Positions 3,833 to 55,276 of a DNA stretch of 64,000 bases are shown in pieces. The notes beneath the pieces were generated by a model, which was given only the letters and a program-made list of their open reading frames with translations, searched no databases and was not told the origin of the DNA. The first letter of the stretch is position 1. Each line of letters starts with the position of its first letter. The translations under genes and the position numbers were made by a program. This DNA is from Zeimonas arvi (GTDB lineage Bacteria; Pseudomonadota; Gammaproteobacteria; Burkholderiales; Burkholderiaceae_E): the NCBI RefSeq assembly GCF_008039575.1, contig NZ_VDUY01000001.1, forward strand, positions 248,001 through 312,000, written 5' to 3'.

Positions 3833-4150
3833 TCAGACTGTCGGCCGCTGCTCGAAGCCGACGAACTCGCCGGCGACGGCCTCCACGTCGATCCGCTCGA
3901 CCCGGGCGGTTGGAGGACCGCGCTGCGCCCAGTCGATCAGCGCGCCGACCGCGGCCTCGGGTCCGGCAGCCACCGCCTCGACCGAGCCGTCGTGGCGATT
4001 CCGGACCCAACCGGACACGCCGAGGCGACGCGCCTCATGCGCCATCGACGCCCGATAGCCGACGCCCTGCACGCGCCCGCTGATCCGCAAGCGCACGGAC
4101 TTCGTCCCGGCCTTGTCCGGCGACGCCATCGACTTGCCTGGCGCATTCAT
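3833..4150 (-). CDS. Acylphosphatase
   Basis: Small cytosolic acylphosphatase of 105 residues that hydrolyses carboxyl-phosphate bonds. The core begins at about residue 18 with [15 protein letters not shown], which carries the catalytic Arg (GVGYR), and continues with [20 protein letters not shown], which carries the catalytic Asn (VRN). The last residues are less conserved. The start at 4150 is chosen because GAGGAGGG precedes it by about 8 nt; the first 17 residues are a non-conserved extension. The downstream end faces the PEP-CTERM terminator. The thioredoxin-like gene lies 20 nt upstream in the same direction, so the two probably share a transcript. Confidence 0.93.
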
Positions 4151-4170
4151 CGCACCGCCCTCCTCCGCGA

Positions 4171-5004
4171 TCATCTGGACCCCCCTGCCCGGATCCGCGC
4201 GAGCTTCGCCGCCAGGGAGGCGTCCGACACCGCGCCCAGGTGCGTGTCCACCAGCCCGCCTTGCGCATCGTAGAACAGCGTGGTGGGCATGGCCCGCGAA
4301 CCGACGGCGCGAGCCAGATCGCCGCCCGCGTCCAGCAGCATGTTGTCGAGCACGAGCTTCTGGTCGCGGATGAAACGCTCGACGCGTGCCGCACCCTCGG
4401 ACTGGTTCACGAACACGAAGGCGATGCCGCGCTCGTGCTGCTGCGCCGCGGCCAGCACCGGCATCTCGCGCACGCAGGGCGGGCACCAGGTCGCCCAGAG
4501 GTTCACCACCATCGGCCTGCCCTGGGCCAGGGCGGCCAGCGTGATGCGTTCGCCGGTCATCGACTGCAGCGCCGTGTCGGGCACGCCGGGCATCGAAGCC
4601 CGGATCTGGTGAACGCCGACCGCGACGCCGCCCCAGGCGAGCGCACCGGCGGCGAGCCCCGCCGCGAGCGGCACGCGCAGCTTCGGGCGCCGCCAACCTC
4701 GCCAGGCCGCCAGCAGCAGCGCGGCCGCGACGCCAGCCCAGACGTCGAAGCCGCCGTCGCGGATGTCGAGCATCGACCAGGGCTGGTCCCGGTAGGAGTC
4801 GAACCAGCGCACCACGAAAACGATGCGCCCCACCAGCAGGCCGACCAGCAGCATGTCGGGCAGCACCGCGCCCACGCCCTCGCCGCGGACCGCGCCGCGC
4901 CGCCGCCCGACGAGCCAGCCGACCGACAACGCCGCCAGGAAGGCGAGCACGACCGCGAGGCGGTCGACCGACAGGCCCAGCGGGCCGAGATTCACCGAGA
5001 GCAT
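4171..5004 (-). CDS. Membrane-anchored TlpA-type thiol:disulfide oxidoreductase with Lgt-like N-terminus
   Basis: Fusion protein of 277 residues. Residues 1-130 hold about four membrane segments, with a stretch resembling prolipoprotein diacylglyceryl transferase ([13 protein letters not shown], then [11 protein letters not shown]). Residues 135-277 are a periplasmic thioredoxin fold of the TlpA/ResA type with active site W-A-T-W-C-P-P-C (Cys174, Cys177) and the cis-Pro loop AMPTTLF. It would reduce or exchange disulfides outside the membrane, for example on apocytochromes. The catalytic Arg/His pattern of a true Lgt is not obvious, so the first half is probably only an anchor or electron conduit. 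GGTGAG precedes the ATG. The substrate is unknown. Confidence 0.88.
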
Positions 5005-5032
5005 CGACTCACCAAGAGACTGGACCCGCCCC

Positions 5033-5665
5033 TCAGGACAGCCACCGGTCGAACCAGTCGGCCGCGTGCTCCGCGGCCTGCGCGAGCGTGCCCGGTTCCT
5101 CGAACAGGTGGGTGGCGCCAGGGACGATCACCAGTTCCTTCTCGCAGGAGAGCCTCGCCATCGCCTTGCGGTTCAGGCCGATCACCACGTCGTCGAGGCC
5201 GCCCACGATCAGCAGCGTGGGCGCGCCGACCGACTCGAGCAGGCCGGGGCCCGCCAGGTCGGGCCGGCCGCCGCGCGACACGACGGCCGACACCCCGGCG
5301 CCCTGCTCGGCCGCGGCTTCGAGTGCCGCGGCCGCGCCGGTGCTCGCACCGAAGTATCCGAGAGGAAGTCGCGCCGCGGCGGCCTGGCCTGACAGCCAGT
5401 CGCTGGCGGCCAGCAGGCGCAGCGTCAGCAAGGGGATGTCGAAGCGCGCCTCGAGGTCGCGGTCCTCCTGCGGCGTCAGCAGGTCGAAGAGCAGCGTGGC
5501 GATGCCGCGGCGCTGCAGCGCCCCGGCCACGAAAGCGTTTCGCGGCGACAGCCGGCTGCTGCCACTGCCGTGCGCGCAGGCCACCACACCGCGGGGAGAC
5601 GGCGGAATCGTGAGCGTGCCGGGGAGGCCGCGCTCGAGTGATGGCACATCGATCAGGATTTCCAT
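5033..5665 (-). CDS. Dienelactone-hydrolase-like alpha/beta hydrolase
   Basis: Cytosolic alpha/beta hydrolase of 210 residues from ATG 5665, which has GGGGAG 6 nt upstream; an in-frame ATG nine codons earlier lacks a site. Visible elements are the oxyanion segment VACAHGSGSSR, the nucleophile elbow LGYFGASTGAAAALEAA (Ser), the acid region IVGGLDDVV (Asp) and the late His in VPGATHLFEEPG. This subgroup is short and is often found with phosphoribosyltransferases, Crp/Fnr regulators and universal-stress genes in low-oxygen stress islands, and two phosphoribosyltransferases do occur 25 kb away. The natural substrate is unknown. The start region carries a small imperfect repeat (TCATGCCGAGG / CCATGCCGAGG, about 5689-5716). 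Confidence 0.88.
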   Translation of the reverse strand: MEILIDVPSLERGLPGTLTIPPSPRGVVACAHGSGSSRLSPRNAFVAGALQRRGIATLLFDLLTPQEDRDLEARFDIPLLTLRLLAASDWLSGQAAAARLPLGYFGASTGAAAALEAAAEQGAGVSAVVSRGGRPDLAGPGLLESVGAPTLLIVGGLDDVVIGLNRKAMARLSCEKELVIVPGATHLFEEPGTLAQAAEHAADWFDRWLS

Positions 5666-5722
5666 CGTCGCTCCCCGCAGTGCCTGGTTCATGCCGAGGG
5701 TTGGTCCATGCCGAGGCCTGGT

Positions 5723-6427
5723 TCAGGGCGATGGCCCTTCGAGCCTGGACGACCAGTCCTCGACACGTCCTTCCTCGAGTCGCCGCTCGATCAGGCGCTG
5801 CCACGACATCACCAGCGGCAGCGCGCGGGCTCGCGCCAGCAGGCCGCGATCGAGGGGCCGCCGGTAGAGCATCTCCATCAGCAGCGATAGCGGCCACCCG
5901 GGGTGCGGCCGCTCGACCAGCTCGATCGCATCGCCCGCCTGCAGGCTGCCGGATTCCAGCACCCGGCAGTACCAGCCGCTGCGCAGCGTGTCCTGCAAGC
6001 GCCGCGCCATGTCCGGCACACCGAAGCGGTCGTTCAGCTTCCAGCAGGGCTGGCGCGACTGCGTGACCTCGAGCAGGGTCGTGCCGACGCGGATCCGATC
6101 GCCGATGCAGACCTCGTCCTCGGTGAGGCCGATCGTCGACAGGTTCTCGCCGAAGGCGCCCGGCCGGTCGAGCACCGGCAACGGACCCAGCTCGGCGCGC
6201 CAGGCTGTGTAGTGCTCCCAGGCGTACAGGTGCACGGCCTTGTCGACGCCGCCGTGCACGCGCGGATCGCCGTGCTCGTCGCCCCGCAGGCCTTCTGGGC
6301 CCGCGTCGACAGGCCCGGTGACGGCCGACTTCGCGATCGCGCTGAAGCTGCCCGGCCGGCTGAACGGCACCGCGCGCCCGACCAGCACGGCCGAGACGCG
6401 GGGCCCCTGGTGCTCGGGCGCGCGCAT
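5723..6427 (-). CDS. MOSC domain protein (YiiM-like)
   Basis: MOSC-domain protein of 234 residues. Typical YiiM-family blocks are GDEHGDPRVHGGVDKAVHLY at about residues 49-68, FGENLSTIGLTEDEVCIGDRI, and the putative molybdenum-cofactor Cys in TQSRQPCWKL. The C-terminal 60 residues form the YiiM 3-alpha extension. E. coli YiiM takes part in N-hydroxylated base-analogue detoxification (6-N-hydroxylaminopurine resistance), using molybdenum cofactor. The gene starts 3 nt after the stop of the DapA-family gene, so they form one transcription unit. Confidence 0.9.
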   Translation of the reverse strand: MRAPEHQGPRVSAVLVGRAVPFSRPGSFSAIAKSAVTGPVDAGPEGLRGDEHGDPRVHGGVDKAVHLYAWEHYTAWRAELGPLPVLDRPGAFGENLSTIGLTEDEVCIGDRIRVGTTLLEVTQSRQPCWKLNDRFGVPDMARRLQDTLRSGWYCRVLESGSLQAGDAIELVERPHPGWPLSLLMEMLYRRPLDRGLLARARALPLVMSWQRLIERRLEEGRVEDWSSRLEGPSP

Positions 6428-6430
6428 CGT

Positions 6431-7357
6431 TCAGCCGATCACGGCCGCCACGTCGAGCGGCTGGGTGATGTCCACGCCCGGCATCACCGCGTCGAGCAGC
6501 TCGCCCAGTTGTGTCGCGCTGACCGGCGACAGCGCGCCGCCCGGGTGCCGGACCGTTCCGGTGGCGAGCAGCCCCCGCCGGCGCAGCAACTCCTTGCGCA
6601 CCGCCACGCCGGGCTGCTGCTCGAAGACGATCAGCGGCAGGAAATGCGTCCAGACCCGGCGCGCGAGCGACTTGTCGCCGCGCTGCCACGCCGCGACATG
6701 GGCCTGCAGCACCTCGGGAAACGCGAAGCCGGTGTTGTAGCCGCTCGAGCCCTGCTCCAGGTCGAACTGGCCGTAGAGCGCGCCCAGACCGGTGAGCATC
6801 GGCAGATCGCGCGACAGCGCCGCCTTCAGCGCGGCGATCTTGGGCGCCGATGGCACCGCCTCGGCCTTGATGCAGGCGATGCGCGGGTTGTCGGCCACGA
6901 TCTTCGCGATCAGGGGCACGCCCATGTGCACGCCGGTGGAGGCCGGATGGTCCTGAAGCACCACCGGCAGCGACACGCCTTCGCACACGCGCGAGAAGTA
7001 CTCCGCCACCCGCGCATCGTTGGGCGCCGGCTCGGCCGAGGGGGTGACCATCAGTGCGTGCGCGCCGAGTTCGGCAGCCATCCGGCCCAGGTCCACCGTG
7101 GCCCGCGTGCCCGGATGCGAGATGCCGACGATCACGGTCATCCGGCTGCCGACCTCCTCGACCGCGGTGCGCACGATCGCCTCGCGCTCGCGGTCGCCCA
7201 TCCGGTTGGCCTCGCCGAGCACGCCCAGCACGGTCACGCCCTGCACGCCGATGCGCGCCATGAACGCGAGCATCCGGCGCAGCGATTCTTCGTCGAAGCG
7301 CTCGTCGCTGCGGAAAGGGGTGGCCAGGATCGGGTAGACGCCTTTGAAGTCGTGCAT
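6431..7357 (-). CDS. Dihydrodipicolinate synthase family aldolase/lyase
   Basis: DapA/N-acetylneuraminate lyase superfamily TIM barrel of 308 residues from ATG 7357, chosen to match the family N-terminus FKGVYPILATPF. The Schiff-base lysine is Lys164 in RIACIKAEA. The usual glycine loop GTTGE is replaced by GVLGEANRM. The catalytic Tyr normally found in a Y-N-x-P motif is absent: residues 133-138 read V-L-Q-D-H-P. It is therefore not a housekeeping DapA but one of the divergent oxo-acid aldolase/hydratase paralogs that often travel with ABC transporters. The neighbouring upstream gene on the same strand is indeed an ABC permease (fused). The substrate is unknown. Confidence 0.85.
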   Translation of the reverse strand: MHDFKGVYPILATPFRSDERFDEESLRRMLAFMARIGVQGVTVLGVLGEANRMGDREREAIVRTAVEEVGSRMTVIVGISHPGTRATVDLGRMAAELGAHALMVTPSAEPAPNDARVAEYFSRVCEGVSLPVVLQDHPASTGVHMGVPLIAKIVADNPRIACIKAEAVPSAPKIAALKAALSRDLPMLTGLGALYGQFDLEQGSSGYNTGFAFPEVLQAHVAAWQRGDKSLARRVWTHFLPLIVFEQQPGVAVRKELLRRRGLLATGTVRHPGGALSPVSATQLGELLDAVMPGVDITQPLDVAAVIG

Positions 7358-7441
7358 CGGTCTGTTCTCGGAAAAGCGGTCGTGAGGAAGCAGCGCGCCT
7401 TGCGGCGCCAAGTCCGGACATTCTGCGCCAAACGCCGCAGG

Positions 7442-8365
7442 TCAGGCCCGCGCCGCCCCGCCCTGCGCCAACCCGAGCGCGCAGGCCGCGACCCACGCCA
7501 TGGCTTCCTCGGCCGTGCCGGCCGCGATCACGCCGCCGATGCGCGCCGCGCCCTCCAGCGCCACCACGGTCTTGCCGGACTGCCGGCCCAGCGCCACTTC
7601 GGAAAGGGTGCCGAAGCTGTCGCCGATCGCGACCAGGCACAGTGCCGAGCGCGCGATGATCGCGTTGCGGGCCTCGCCGATGCCGGTGGCCCCGTAGAAG
7701 GCCTGCAGCAGCACGACCGGGTAGGTGCGGTTCAGGAATCCGGCGATCAGGTTCGAGAACTGGAACTCGCCGATCGACAGCGCGGCCACCACGATCAGCC
7801 CCGACAGGATCGAGTGGCGCAGCGCCGGCAGCACGATGTGCAGGTAGCGCTGCAGGCCGGTGCTGCCGCAGGACTCGGCGGCGTCTTCGAGCACCTGCAG
7901 GCCGAGCCGCTGCATGTCCGCCACCACCGCCTGCAGGAAGTACGGCAGGCCGAGCACGATGTGCCCGGCGATCAGCAGCCAGATGCTGCCCAGCCACGGC
8001 AGCGTGTCCGACGAAAAGACGAGGATGTAGCCGAAGGCGAGCACCAGCGGCGGCAGCGCGATCGGCAACTGGTAGAGCGCGCGCGACAGCGCCCGGATGC
8101 GCGGATCGCGCGCCTTGAACACTGCGTAGGCCAGCGGCAGGCCGATGGCCAGGCAGGCCGCGCAGGCCGCACCGGCGACGATCAGGCTGGCCATGAAGGC
8201 GCGCTGGAAGCTGGGGTCGGTGGCGACTTCGAGGTACCAGCGCGCGGTGAACCCGGTGGGCAGGAGCGTGCCGAGCCACAGGTCGCCGAAGGACCCCGCG
8301 AAGAGCAGCAGGATCGGCGTGACCAGATAGATCAGGTAAACGAAGGTCACCACCCGGGGGAACAT
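7442..8365 (-). CDS. Chimeric ORF: ABC transporter permease (residues 1-228) fused to LOG-like protein tail (229-307)
   Basis: Residues 1-228 are an inner-membrane permease of the spermidine/2-aminoethylphosphonate class. They show about five membrane spans and the EAA loop at about 160-185 (EDAAESCGSTGLQRYLHIVLP), and end at LLQAFYGATG, where the last helix should follow. Without a break the protein then reads GIGEARNAIIARSA, VAIGDSFGTLSEVALG and a late EEAMAW segment. This is the second half of the LOG/TIGR00725 Rossmann family, where the usual text is ATG-x-G-x-ARNAI-VRSAD and G-G-x-x-GTLSE. The join near 7680-7685 sits on the ATG(I/F) motif common to both parents. The permease lacks its last helix and the LOG half lacks its N-terminal Rossmann strands, so neither is likely to work normally. 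No partner ATPase or binding protein is adjacent. Confidence 0.8.
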   Translation of the reverse strand: MFPRVVTFVYLIYLVTPILLLFAGSFGDLWLGTLLPTGFTARWYLEVATDPSFQRAFMASLIVAGAACAACLAIGLPLAYAVFKARDPRIRALSRALYQLPIALPPLVLAFGYILVFSSDTLPWLGSIWLLIAGHIVLGLPYFLQAVVADMQRLGLQVLEDAAESCGSTGLQRYLHIVLPALRHSILSGLIVVAALSIGEFQFSNLIAGFLNRTYPVVLLQAFYGATGIGEARNAIIARSALCLVAIGDSFGTLSEVALGRQSGKTVVALEGAARIGGVIAAGTAEEAMAWVAACALGLAQGGAARA

Positions 8366-8431
8366 CGCGCCGTCTCGTCTGCCCTTCGGTTCGAATCCTC
8401 GCGATCAGACCCTGAGATCTGCGTCAGGACA

Positions 8432-8486: not shown

Positions 8487-8918
8487 TCAGCCCTCGGGCT
8501 CGTGACAGGCGCAGGCCTCGCCGTGCGCGGCCGCCACCAGCTCCTGCAGGATCCCGCACTCGCGCGCGGCGTGCGGCTCCCCGCATTGCGCCCGCAGCGC
8601 GGCCAGCTGGCGCTCGAGCGCCCGCAGGCTTTCGATCCGCGCGCGCACCCGACCCAGCTGGTCGTCGATCAGCTCGTTGATGTCGCCGCAATCGGCTTCG
8701 GGCTGCGCCGCGAAGTCGAGCAGGCGCCGGACCGCCTCGAGCGGCATGTCGAGCGCGCGGCAGTGCCGCACGAAGGCCAGCCGTTCGAGATGCCCGATGC
8801 CATAGGCGCGATAGCCGTTGCTCTCGCGCGCAGGCTCCGGCAACAGACCCGCCCTCTCGTAGTAGCGGATGGTCTCGACGTCGACGCCGGTGGCTTTCGC
8901 GAGTTCGCCGATACGCAT
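8487..8918 (-). CDS. MerR-family Cd(II)/Pb(II)-type metal-responsive regulator (CadR/PbrR-like)
   Basis: MerR activator of 143 residues. The N-terminal helix-turn-helix reads MRIGELAKATGVDVETIRYY and is followed by the GLLPEPARESNGYRAY wing. A dimerisation helix follows. The metal ligands match the CadR/PbrR subgroup: Cys77 in DCGDINELID, Cys112 in AQCGEP and Cys121 in ARECGIL. A Cys-rich tail, ACACHEPEG, follows. It would bend the divergent promoter at 8965 upon Cd, Pb or similar divalent metal binding and so activate the transporter at 9040. CadR is commonly paired with a P-type ATPase; here its only neighbour is a small CDF-like protein. Confidence 0.93.
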   Translation of the reverse strand: MRIGELAKATGVDVETIRYYERAGLLPEPARESNGYRAYGIGHLERLAFVRHCRALDMPLEAVRRLLDFAAQPEADCGDINELIDDQLGRVRARIESLRALERQLAALRAQCGEPHAARECGILQELVAAAHGEACACHEPEG

Positions 8919-9039: not shown

Positions 9040-9675
9040 GTGTCCCATTGCCACGGCTATCACTGCAGTGCCACCGCATTCGATGCGCGCAGCCCGCGGC
9101 TTCGTCGGGTGCTGTGGATCGCCTTGATCCTCAACGCCGCGATGTTCGCGGTCGAGATCGTGGGCGGACTGAAGTCCGGATCGGTCTCGCTGCTGGCCGA
9201 CGCGGTCGACTTCGCCGGCGATGCGGCCAACTACGCGCTGTCGCTCACCGTGCTGTCGATGGGCCTGCTGTGGCGGGCCCGCGCCGCCTGGATCAAGGGC
9301 GCCACGATGGGCGCCTACGGGGCCTTCGTGCTCGGCAAGGCGGCCTGGGCGGCGGCAGCGGGCTCGGCGCCCGAGCCGATCACGATGGGCGCGATCGCCG
9401 TGATCGCGCTGGCGGTGAACGCCGGCGTCGCGGTGATGCTGTTCGGCTTTCGCGAGGGCGATGCCAACCTGCGCTCCGTGTGGCTGTGCAGCCGCAACGA
9501 TGCGATCGGGAACCTCGCGGTGGGGATTGCGGCGCTCGGCGTGTTCGGCACCGGCACCGCCTGGCCCGACCTGGCGGTCGCGAGCGTGATGGCCACGCTC
9601 GCGCTGACAGCCTCGGTGTCGGTGCTCAGGCAGGCGCGCGGCGAGATCGAGTTGGCGACCTCGACCGCGCGCTGA
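9040..9675 (+). CDS. Small cation-efflux (CDF-like) membrane protein
   Basis: Inner-membrane protein of 211 residues with about six membrane segments and no C-terminal cytoplasmic CDF domain. The first helices carry the CDF-type acidic signature SVSLLADAVDFAGDAANYALSL (Asp residues in helix 2), and a second such site reads SRNDAIGNLAVG in helix 5. The N-terminus MSHCHGYHC is rich in Cys and His and could collect metal. The start is GTG at 9040 with CAGGA upstream. Expression is predicted to depend on the divergent CadR/PbrR-like regulator through the promoter at 8965, so it probably exports Cd, Pb, Zn or a similar divalent cation by proton antiport. Confidence 0.88.
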   Translation: MSHCHGYHCSATAFDARSPRLRRVLWIALILNAAMFAVEIVGGLKSGSVSLLADAVDFAGDAANYALSLTVLSMGLLWRARAAWIKGATMGAYGAFVLGKAAWAAAAGSAPEPITMGAIAVIALAVNAGVAVMLFGFREGDANLRSVWLCSRNDAIGNLAVGIAALGVFGTGTAWPDLAVASVMATLALTASVSVLRQARGEIELATSTAR

Positions 9676-9705
9676 AACCGAAACGCCGGCGAGCGACGCG
9701 CGCGC

Positions 9706-10212
9706 TCAGCCCAGTCGCTCGTCGGCCTTGGCGCCGGCGCGATAGGTCTCGTAGACGACGACCGGCACGCCCAGGTCGCCCAGGTGCTGCTTGACCAGCG
9801 GCTCGACCTGCGCCCACTCGAGACCGCCCACGCCGGTGGCCAGGCGAGGCAGGGCCACGCTCTGCACCTGCTCGGCGCGGACGAACTTCGCCAGCGCCTT
9901 CAACGCGCGGCTCACGTTCTCGGTGGTGGCCTTGCCGGGCCTGGCCGACCCGCCGCTGCCCATCGTGTCCTGGGTCAGCAGGTTGACGATGCCGCGGGTG
10001 CTGCCGTCGACATCGACGCCACGCCAGGCCCAGATTTCGCCGGCGGCCAGCGGCTTGCCGTGGATCGCGTGCCGGTAATCGCGCACCATCGACGGCCAGC
10101 GCTCGCGCAGCGCCAGCGCCAGGCCGGTGTCGAAGTGGTCCTGCGGTGCGATGCCGTGCGCGATGAACTGGGCCCTGGTCAGGAGGATGTCGCCTTCGAC
10201 TTTACGGATCAT
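9706..10212 (-). CDS. Macro domain protein (ADP-ribose binding/hydrolase)
   Basis: Single macro domain of 168 residues. ATG 10212 is chosen because the domain starts at once (MIRKVEGDILLT). Key blocks are FIAHGIAPQDHFDTGLALAL (substrate loop and first helix), GIVNLLTQDT, the glycine-rich SGGSARPGKATTENV, and VALPRLATGVGGLEW near the C-terminus, which supplies the phosphate-binding loop. The family binds ADP-ribose and often removes it from proteins, nucleic acid or O-acetyl-ADP-ribose. No DarT-like ADP-ribosyltransferase partner is adjacent, so it is probably a stand-alone de-ADP-ribosylase. An FNR-like box lies 111 bp upstream. Confidence 0.85.
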   Translation of the reverse strand: MIRKVEGDILLTRAQFIAHGIAPQDHFDTGLALALRERWPSMVRDYRHAIHGKPLAAGEIWAWRGVDVDGSTRGIVNLLTQDTMGSGGSARPGKATTENVSRALKALAKFVRAEQVQSVALPRLATGVGGLEWAQVEPLVKQHLGDLGVPVVVYETYRAGAKADERLG

Positions 10213-10322
10213 GGAACGTTTCCGGTCTGGATCGTTGAGGAGGAGGATGCCCCGGGGCAGACGGTACGCAACGAGGGGCGCGCCCGATGTCATCATTGTT
10301 CTCGTCATCTGCCGTCCGCACC

Positions 10323-55200: not shown

Positions 55201-55276
<76 letters not shown>

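Follow-up and report, generated by a model that had tools for sequence, protein, structure and literature searches.

A permease-SLOG open reading frame in Zeimonas arvi, the probable scar of a microhomology deletion within an ABC importer operon

Introduction

ABC importers of the PhnSTUV/PotABCD type include the 2-aminoethylphosphonate, polyamine and iron classes, and SLOG proteins of the TIGR00725/PF18306 type include the solved structures 1rcu and 2iz5. Deletions with 2-11 bp of microhomology at the junction are described from Escherichia coli and are read by the authors as alternative end joining; the published deletions (PMC12714560) were 51-255 bp long and CRISPR-induced. One open frame of Zeimonas arvi joins most of an importer permease to the tail of a SLOG protein. 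It is very probably the scar of one event in this strain's lineage, a microhomology deletion of about 3.6 kb.

Features of the fused gene

The window is the whole 64,000-nucleotide stretch of Z. arvi DNA analyzed, and coordinates refer to it unless a contig is named. G004 and G007 are relatives from the same genus and G029 is a relative from the family; L046 and L047 are contigs of G007. ORF analysis gave a single open frame with an ATG start, and the features of the locus are as follows.

7442-8365, minus strand: fused ORF, 307 aa
7691-8365, minus strand: permease-derived part up to the microhomology, residues 1-225, TM1-TM5 with TM6 lost (within the L046 DNA match; hydropathy)
7682-7690, minus strand: 9-bp microhomology GCCACCGGC, codons A-T-G, residues 226-228 (one copy here; two in G007 and in G004, flanking the lost block)
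7445-7681, minus strand: SLOG/TIGR00725-derived tail, residues 229-307, N-terminal half of the domain missing (Pfam; within the L047 DNA match)
6431-7411, minus strand: DHDPS-family gene, intact downstream neighbor (collinear with G007 and G004)
8487-8918, minus strand: CadR/PbrR-type MerR regulator gene, intact upstream neighbor (collinear with G007)

Pfam placed PF00528 at residues 78-225 (E 8.7e-10) and PF18306 (SLOG cluster 4) at residues 226-275 (E 3.7e-10), both above the curated cut-offs. In NCBIfam, PhnV was the top permease model (79.6 bits) and positions 77-125 of the 159 of TIGR00725 matched residues 226-274 (25.3 bits); both scores are under the curated cut-offs, which would be expected of a partial gene or a non-equivalog. 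Both domains are incomplete. The PF00528 match covers model positions 8-151 of 184, against 8-177 in G007, and the last of the six helices of this permease subfamily (residues 228-246 in G007, Kyte-Doolittle mean 2.53) is absent by hydropathy. Only positions 79-125 of the 151 of the PF18306 profile are kept, against 3-125 in G007, and the SLOG cluster 4/TIGR00725 domain lacks its N-terminal half. The tail contains a weakly hydrophobic stretch at residues 236-259 (Kyte-Doolittle mean 1.51). The preliminary description, made from the letters alone, had read the frame as residues 1-228 of a permease with its last helix missing, followed by the last 79 residues of a LOG/TIGR00725 protein, and this is borne out by ORF analysis, Pfam, NCBIfam and hydropathy. 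Protein identity to G007 is 93% over residues 1-244 and 91% over residues 226-307, on two different contigs.

A scan for promoter and terminator consensus sequences around the fused ORF found none. A tRNA remnant suspected near 8390 (a GGTTCGAATCC-like string) was dropped, as the one tRNA that ARAGORN predicts in the window is tRNA-Ala at 55201-55276. Between the gene at 9706-10308 and the permease, both the window and G007 carry the MerR gene and a short CDF-type efflux gene (9040-9675); in G004 the permease directly follows a gene matching window 9700-10211. A MOSC-domain gene is located at 5723-6427, two genes downstream of the fused ORF, and the intact relatives of the SLOG tail resemble the Moco carrier protein.

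Ancestral operon and junction

The gene order permease1, ATPase, binding protein, permease2, SLOG gene is present in G004, G007 and G029. On contig L048 of G004, permease1 is followed by the ABC ATPase gene, the gene of a PF13343 binding protein, permease2 and the beginning of a PF18306 gene. G007 has this order divided between L046 and L047, which are neighbors as judged from an exact 69 bp overlap of their ends. The operon genes of G029 are on one contig, with the SLOG gene immediately after permease2. A comparison with close relatives for separate permease and LOG genes had been proposed, and all three genomes have both, the SLOG gene of G004 by its start, with the other operon genes between them. 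The permease and SLOG parents are the first and last genes of one recurring cluster, not unrelated neighbors.

The permease, ATPase and binding-protein genes of G004 and G007 match PhnSTUV/PotABCD-type families, with scores under the curated equivalog cut-offs among the matches listed. The G007 SLOG protein passes the TIGR00725 cut-off (109.7 vs 106.9 bits). The nearest solved relatives of the SLOG protein are 1rcu and the Moco carrier protein 2iz5, and that of the binding protein of the operon is 5t1p. Distribution within the genus is patchy: among 18 genomes, the window's own included, only that genome, G007 and G004 exceed 28-32% permease identity, several of the genomes without a better match being incomplete.

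Window 11301-7678 aligns to L046 at 91.2% DNA identity and window 4002-7690 to L047 at 92.0%, so that both flanks keep the G007 order. The two alignments overlap at 7678-7690, and the exact common word is GCCACCGGC at 7682-7690. Read as GCC ACC GGC, it encodes A-T-G in the same frame in both parent genes. Its copies lie at 8415-8423 and 12024-12032 of L048 in G004, and in G007 at 3592-3600 of L046 and, as the reverse complement, at 310-318 of L047. The block absent from the window, 3609 bp long in G004 and 3560 bp in G007, runs from the end of permease1 through the ATPase, binding-protein and permease2 genes to the N-terminal part of the SLOG gene. Two direct copies of the word thus flank the lost block in the ancestral arrangement, and the window has one copy, with the permease flank on one side and the SLOG flank on the other. 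The word is not common to the permease and SLOG genes of G029, and the repeat was seen only in the two genus relatives.

A microhomology deletion of a multi-kilobase ancestral segment, or else an assembly collapse, had been put forward in the preliminary description, and the relatives do show the segment, with breakpoints on a perfect 9-bp word. The shared motif given there, G-A-T-G, holds in part: A-T-G is common to both parents, but the preceding G belongs to the permease only, SLOG parents having I, V or L.

The ancestor would have carried the operon-like run from permease1 to the SLOG (TIGR00725) gene. Recombination or end joining between the two words, one just before permease helix 6 and the other in the SLOG ATGIGEARNA motif, would have removed about 3.6 kb and joined the first and last operon genes in frame. 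What is left would be a transporter remnant lacking the ATPase, the binding protein, the second permease and one helix, and a SLOG tail lacking its N-terminal half; by the usual topology of such permeases, the tail would follow TM5 on the outside. We infer that the deletion is one of the living genome and not of the assembly alone, and the repair route is likewise inferred.

Phase of the common words

The deletion had been pointed out as falling exactly in frame. It is in frame, but this is unremarkable, as the naive expectation of one third does not apply here: between co-oriented gene-like ORFs of the window, 9220 of 12553 common words of at least 9 bp (73%) are already in the same codon phase, and 81% of those of at least 11 bp. 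The 42 ORFs counted were picked by a codon-position GC rule, which favors periodic genes; in five minus-strand neighbor genes outside that pick, 99 of 123 common words are in phase. Maximal common words of at least 9 bp between the permease and SLOG genes number 14 in G007, 16 in G004 and 10 in G029, with 11, 10 and 8 in the same phase. Codon-shuffled controls for these three genomes gave 8.5, 8.9 and 6.4 such words, 76%, 63% and 67% of them in phase. This suggests that in GC-rich genomes, where codon periodicity puts short identical words in phase, microhomology deletions should yield in-frame fusions in more than a third of cases.

Fate of the deleted genes

The genome assembly of the window consists of 16 contigs and is 98.9% complete. 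No orthologue of the lost ATPase, binding protein or permease2 was found in it; all three are present in G004. The lost binding protein has a single match of 27%, on another contig, and permease2 has none at E ≤ 0.001, in a search run without a positive control. The lost ATPase has 101 matches, as expected of paralogues; the one with the best E-value has 46% identity, and none exceeds 49% among the matches listed. The nearest ABC-ATPase matches lie at distances of 12.4 kb (window ~20.8 kb, 28% identity) and, in the other direction, 13.4 kb, in agreement with the earlier remark that no ATPase or binding protein is nearby. The whole lost block, searched as DNA against its own genome, matches only within its positions 162-831, inside the ATPase gene, in short stretches of up to 89%. 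For lost-block DNA beyond the ATPase there are no more than three matches, 32-66 bp in length. These DNA searches, with 40 candidates scored in each out of 805 and 723 at first look, are by themselves not exhaustive. As far as an assembly of this completeness goes, the operon appears to be lost, not relocated.

These results bear on the reading that the living genome has the intact operon and that the assembler dropped 3.6 kb, which is unlikely. Separate genes, in an intact or rearranged arrangement, are the rule in relatives, which agrees with an error; relatives with two intact genes had even been proposed as proof of one, but on their own they reveal the ancestral state. Assemblers normally need more than a 9-bp repeat for a join, the flanks are collinear on both sides, and the missing genes were not found elsewhere in the assembly. 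The tail is also changed at two sites that are fixed in 13 other tails, which would be expected if the gene was already broken in nature.

State of the fused gene

In comparison with G007, the permease half has a dN/dS of 0.11 and the tail one of 0.14, both within the range of eight neighboring genes (0.10-0.46), with no sign of decay at the gene level. The low values fit a recent event and would also fit a product under selection. Polarized by outgroup majority, six amino-acid changes are assigned to the window branch and one to that of G007, and the synonymous changes number 13 and 16 (four ambiguous changes of each kind dropped); the surplus of amino-acid changes in the window lineage does not reach significance (Fisher two-sided p = 0.09). 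The outgroups were G004 and 11 of the 80 genome-collection loci described below for the permease, and G029, G004 (partial) and 11 loci for the SLOG tail. Two of the six window-branch changes replace an F and a D/E, each kept in 13 of 13 other SLOG tails, and two more (tail codons 55 and 61) fall at variable sites. The polarized changes are at most suggestive of decay. The AlphaFold model of the fused product, made without an intact SLOG protein as control, is weak overall (mean pLDDT of 57.8), with no residue above 90, 111 residues at 70-90, and residues 210-307 all below 50.

That selection maintains the product, in which five membrane helices precede a C-terminal SLOG fragment, is highly improbable. 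The frame is intact, both halves have low dN/dS, and the weakly hydrophobic stretch at residues 236-259 is close to the former position of TM6. However, no orthologous ATPase, binding protein or second permease is left, the N-terminal half of the SLOG domain is gone, and the fusion is carried by no other genome searched. Together with the loss of all partners, the changed conserved residues and the low pLDDT of the tail make it most likely that the product is inactive. Under the microhomology deletion preferred here, the still open frame would probably reflect a recent event and not a need for the product.

Distribution of the fusion

A full-length match to the fusion was found only in the genome of the window itself, among 18 genus and 74 family genomes (that genome counted in both). 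In a collection of genomes, the best 80 of 211 loci found (L057-L136) were searched for SLOG motifs in the permease frame, and none of the 80 had them, L122 among them being uninformative because of a frameshift. These loci include contigs of G007 (L057), G004 (L089) and apparently G029 (L060), and the scan behind them may omit records close to the genome of the window. At 6001-6674 of L122, an Accumulibacter record, the permease homologue is split over two frames near residue 177, possibly by a frameshift or sequencing error. In a plasmid collection, 475 records had a match and 15 covered at least 80% of the query in one place, the best with 60.1% identity among the eight of these 15 inspected. 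None of the literature titles listed concerned a permease-SLOG fusion.

Many homologues with the same fusion, named earlier as the sign of an established family, were absent from the genomes searched, and the fusion was found in no second lineage. As the fusion is in no other genome searched and the relatives carry the intact operon, the fused ORF is a single-lineage deletion and not an established fusion family. An old fusion inherited by several lineages is scarcely credible, given that the closest relatives are intact, that the 18 genus and 74 family genomes gave no full-length match outside this one, and that none of the 80 permease frames carries the SLOG motifs.

Association of the SLOG gene with the importer

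In 69 of the 80 loci the SLOG gene adjoins the ABC operon, and two gene orders occur. The SLOG match is 3.3-4.4 kb downstream of the permease match in 37 loci and upstream of it in 31 (at 83-249 bp in 30 and at 919 bp in one). One further locus has it on both sides, four have it on neither side despite full flanks, and in seven the contig ends too soon. The gene is placed either after permease2 or just before permease1, as seen at L048 7740-12084 and in 69 of the loci L057-L136. In the genome of the window, the two further PF18306 matches that pass the cut-off (C4:256020 and C1:144544) lie 37 kb or more from every PF00528 match listed, and a third, with a score under the cut-off (C3:429010), is 5.9 kb from a PF00528 match.

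Judged by this gene neighborhood, the SLOG gene looks like a regular partner of the importer. A possible, still tentative reading is an undescribed transporter-enzyme module of a PhnSTUV-like importer and a dedicated TIGR00725 SLOG partner that would act on the imported compound, occurring in two gene orders in alpha- and betaproteobacterial and Desulfovibrio records and lost here in one step. That the SLOG protein acts on the imported compound is a guess. In the literature searched, no paper contained the term TIGR00725, and no title among those listed concerned a SLOG-importer association. It was the fused ORF that drew attention to this recurring and uncharacterized association.

Comparison with known systems

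The locus is very probably a natural case of one short-repeat deletion that made an open chimeric gene out of the two ends of an operon, a gene that could be annotated by mistake as a new domain fusion. The permease half, and the four other transporter genes of G004 and G007, match importers of the PhnSTUV/PotABCD type. Unlike those importers, they score under the equivalog cut-offs among the matches listed, so that no substrate is assigned, and the window keeps only a truncated permease. The G007 protein matches the TIGR00725/PF18306 SLOG proteins represented by 1rcu and 2iz5, of which the window keeps only positions 79-125 of the 151 of PF18306. As in the E. coli microhomology deletions of PMC12714560, one copy of a short direct repeat is kept and all that lay between the copies is lost. 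Those deletions are 51-255 bp long and were induced by CRISPR effectors, whereas the one described here is natural, has a length of about 3.6 kb and links the reading frames of two genes from a single cluster.
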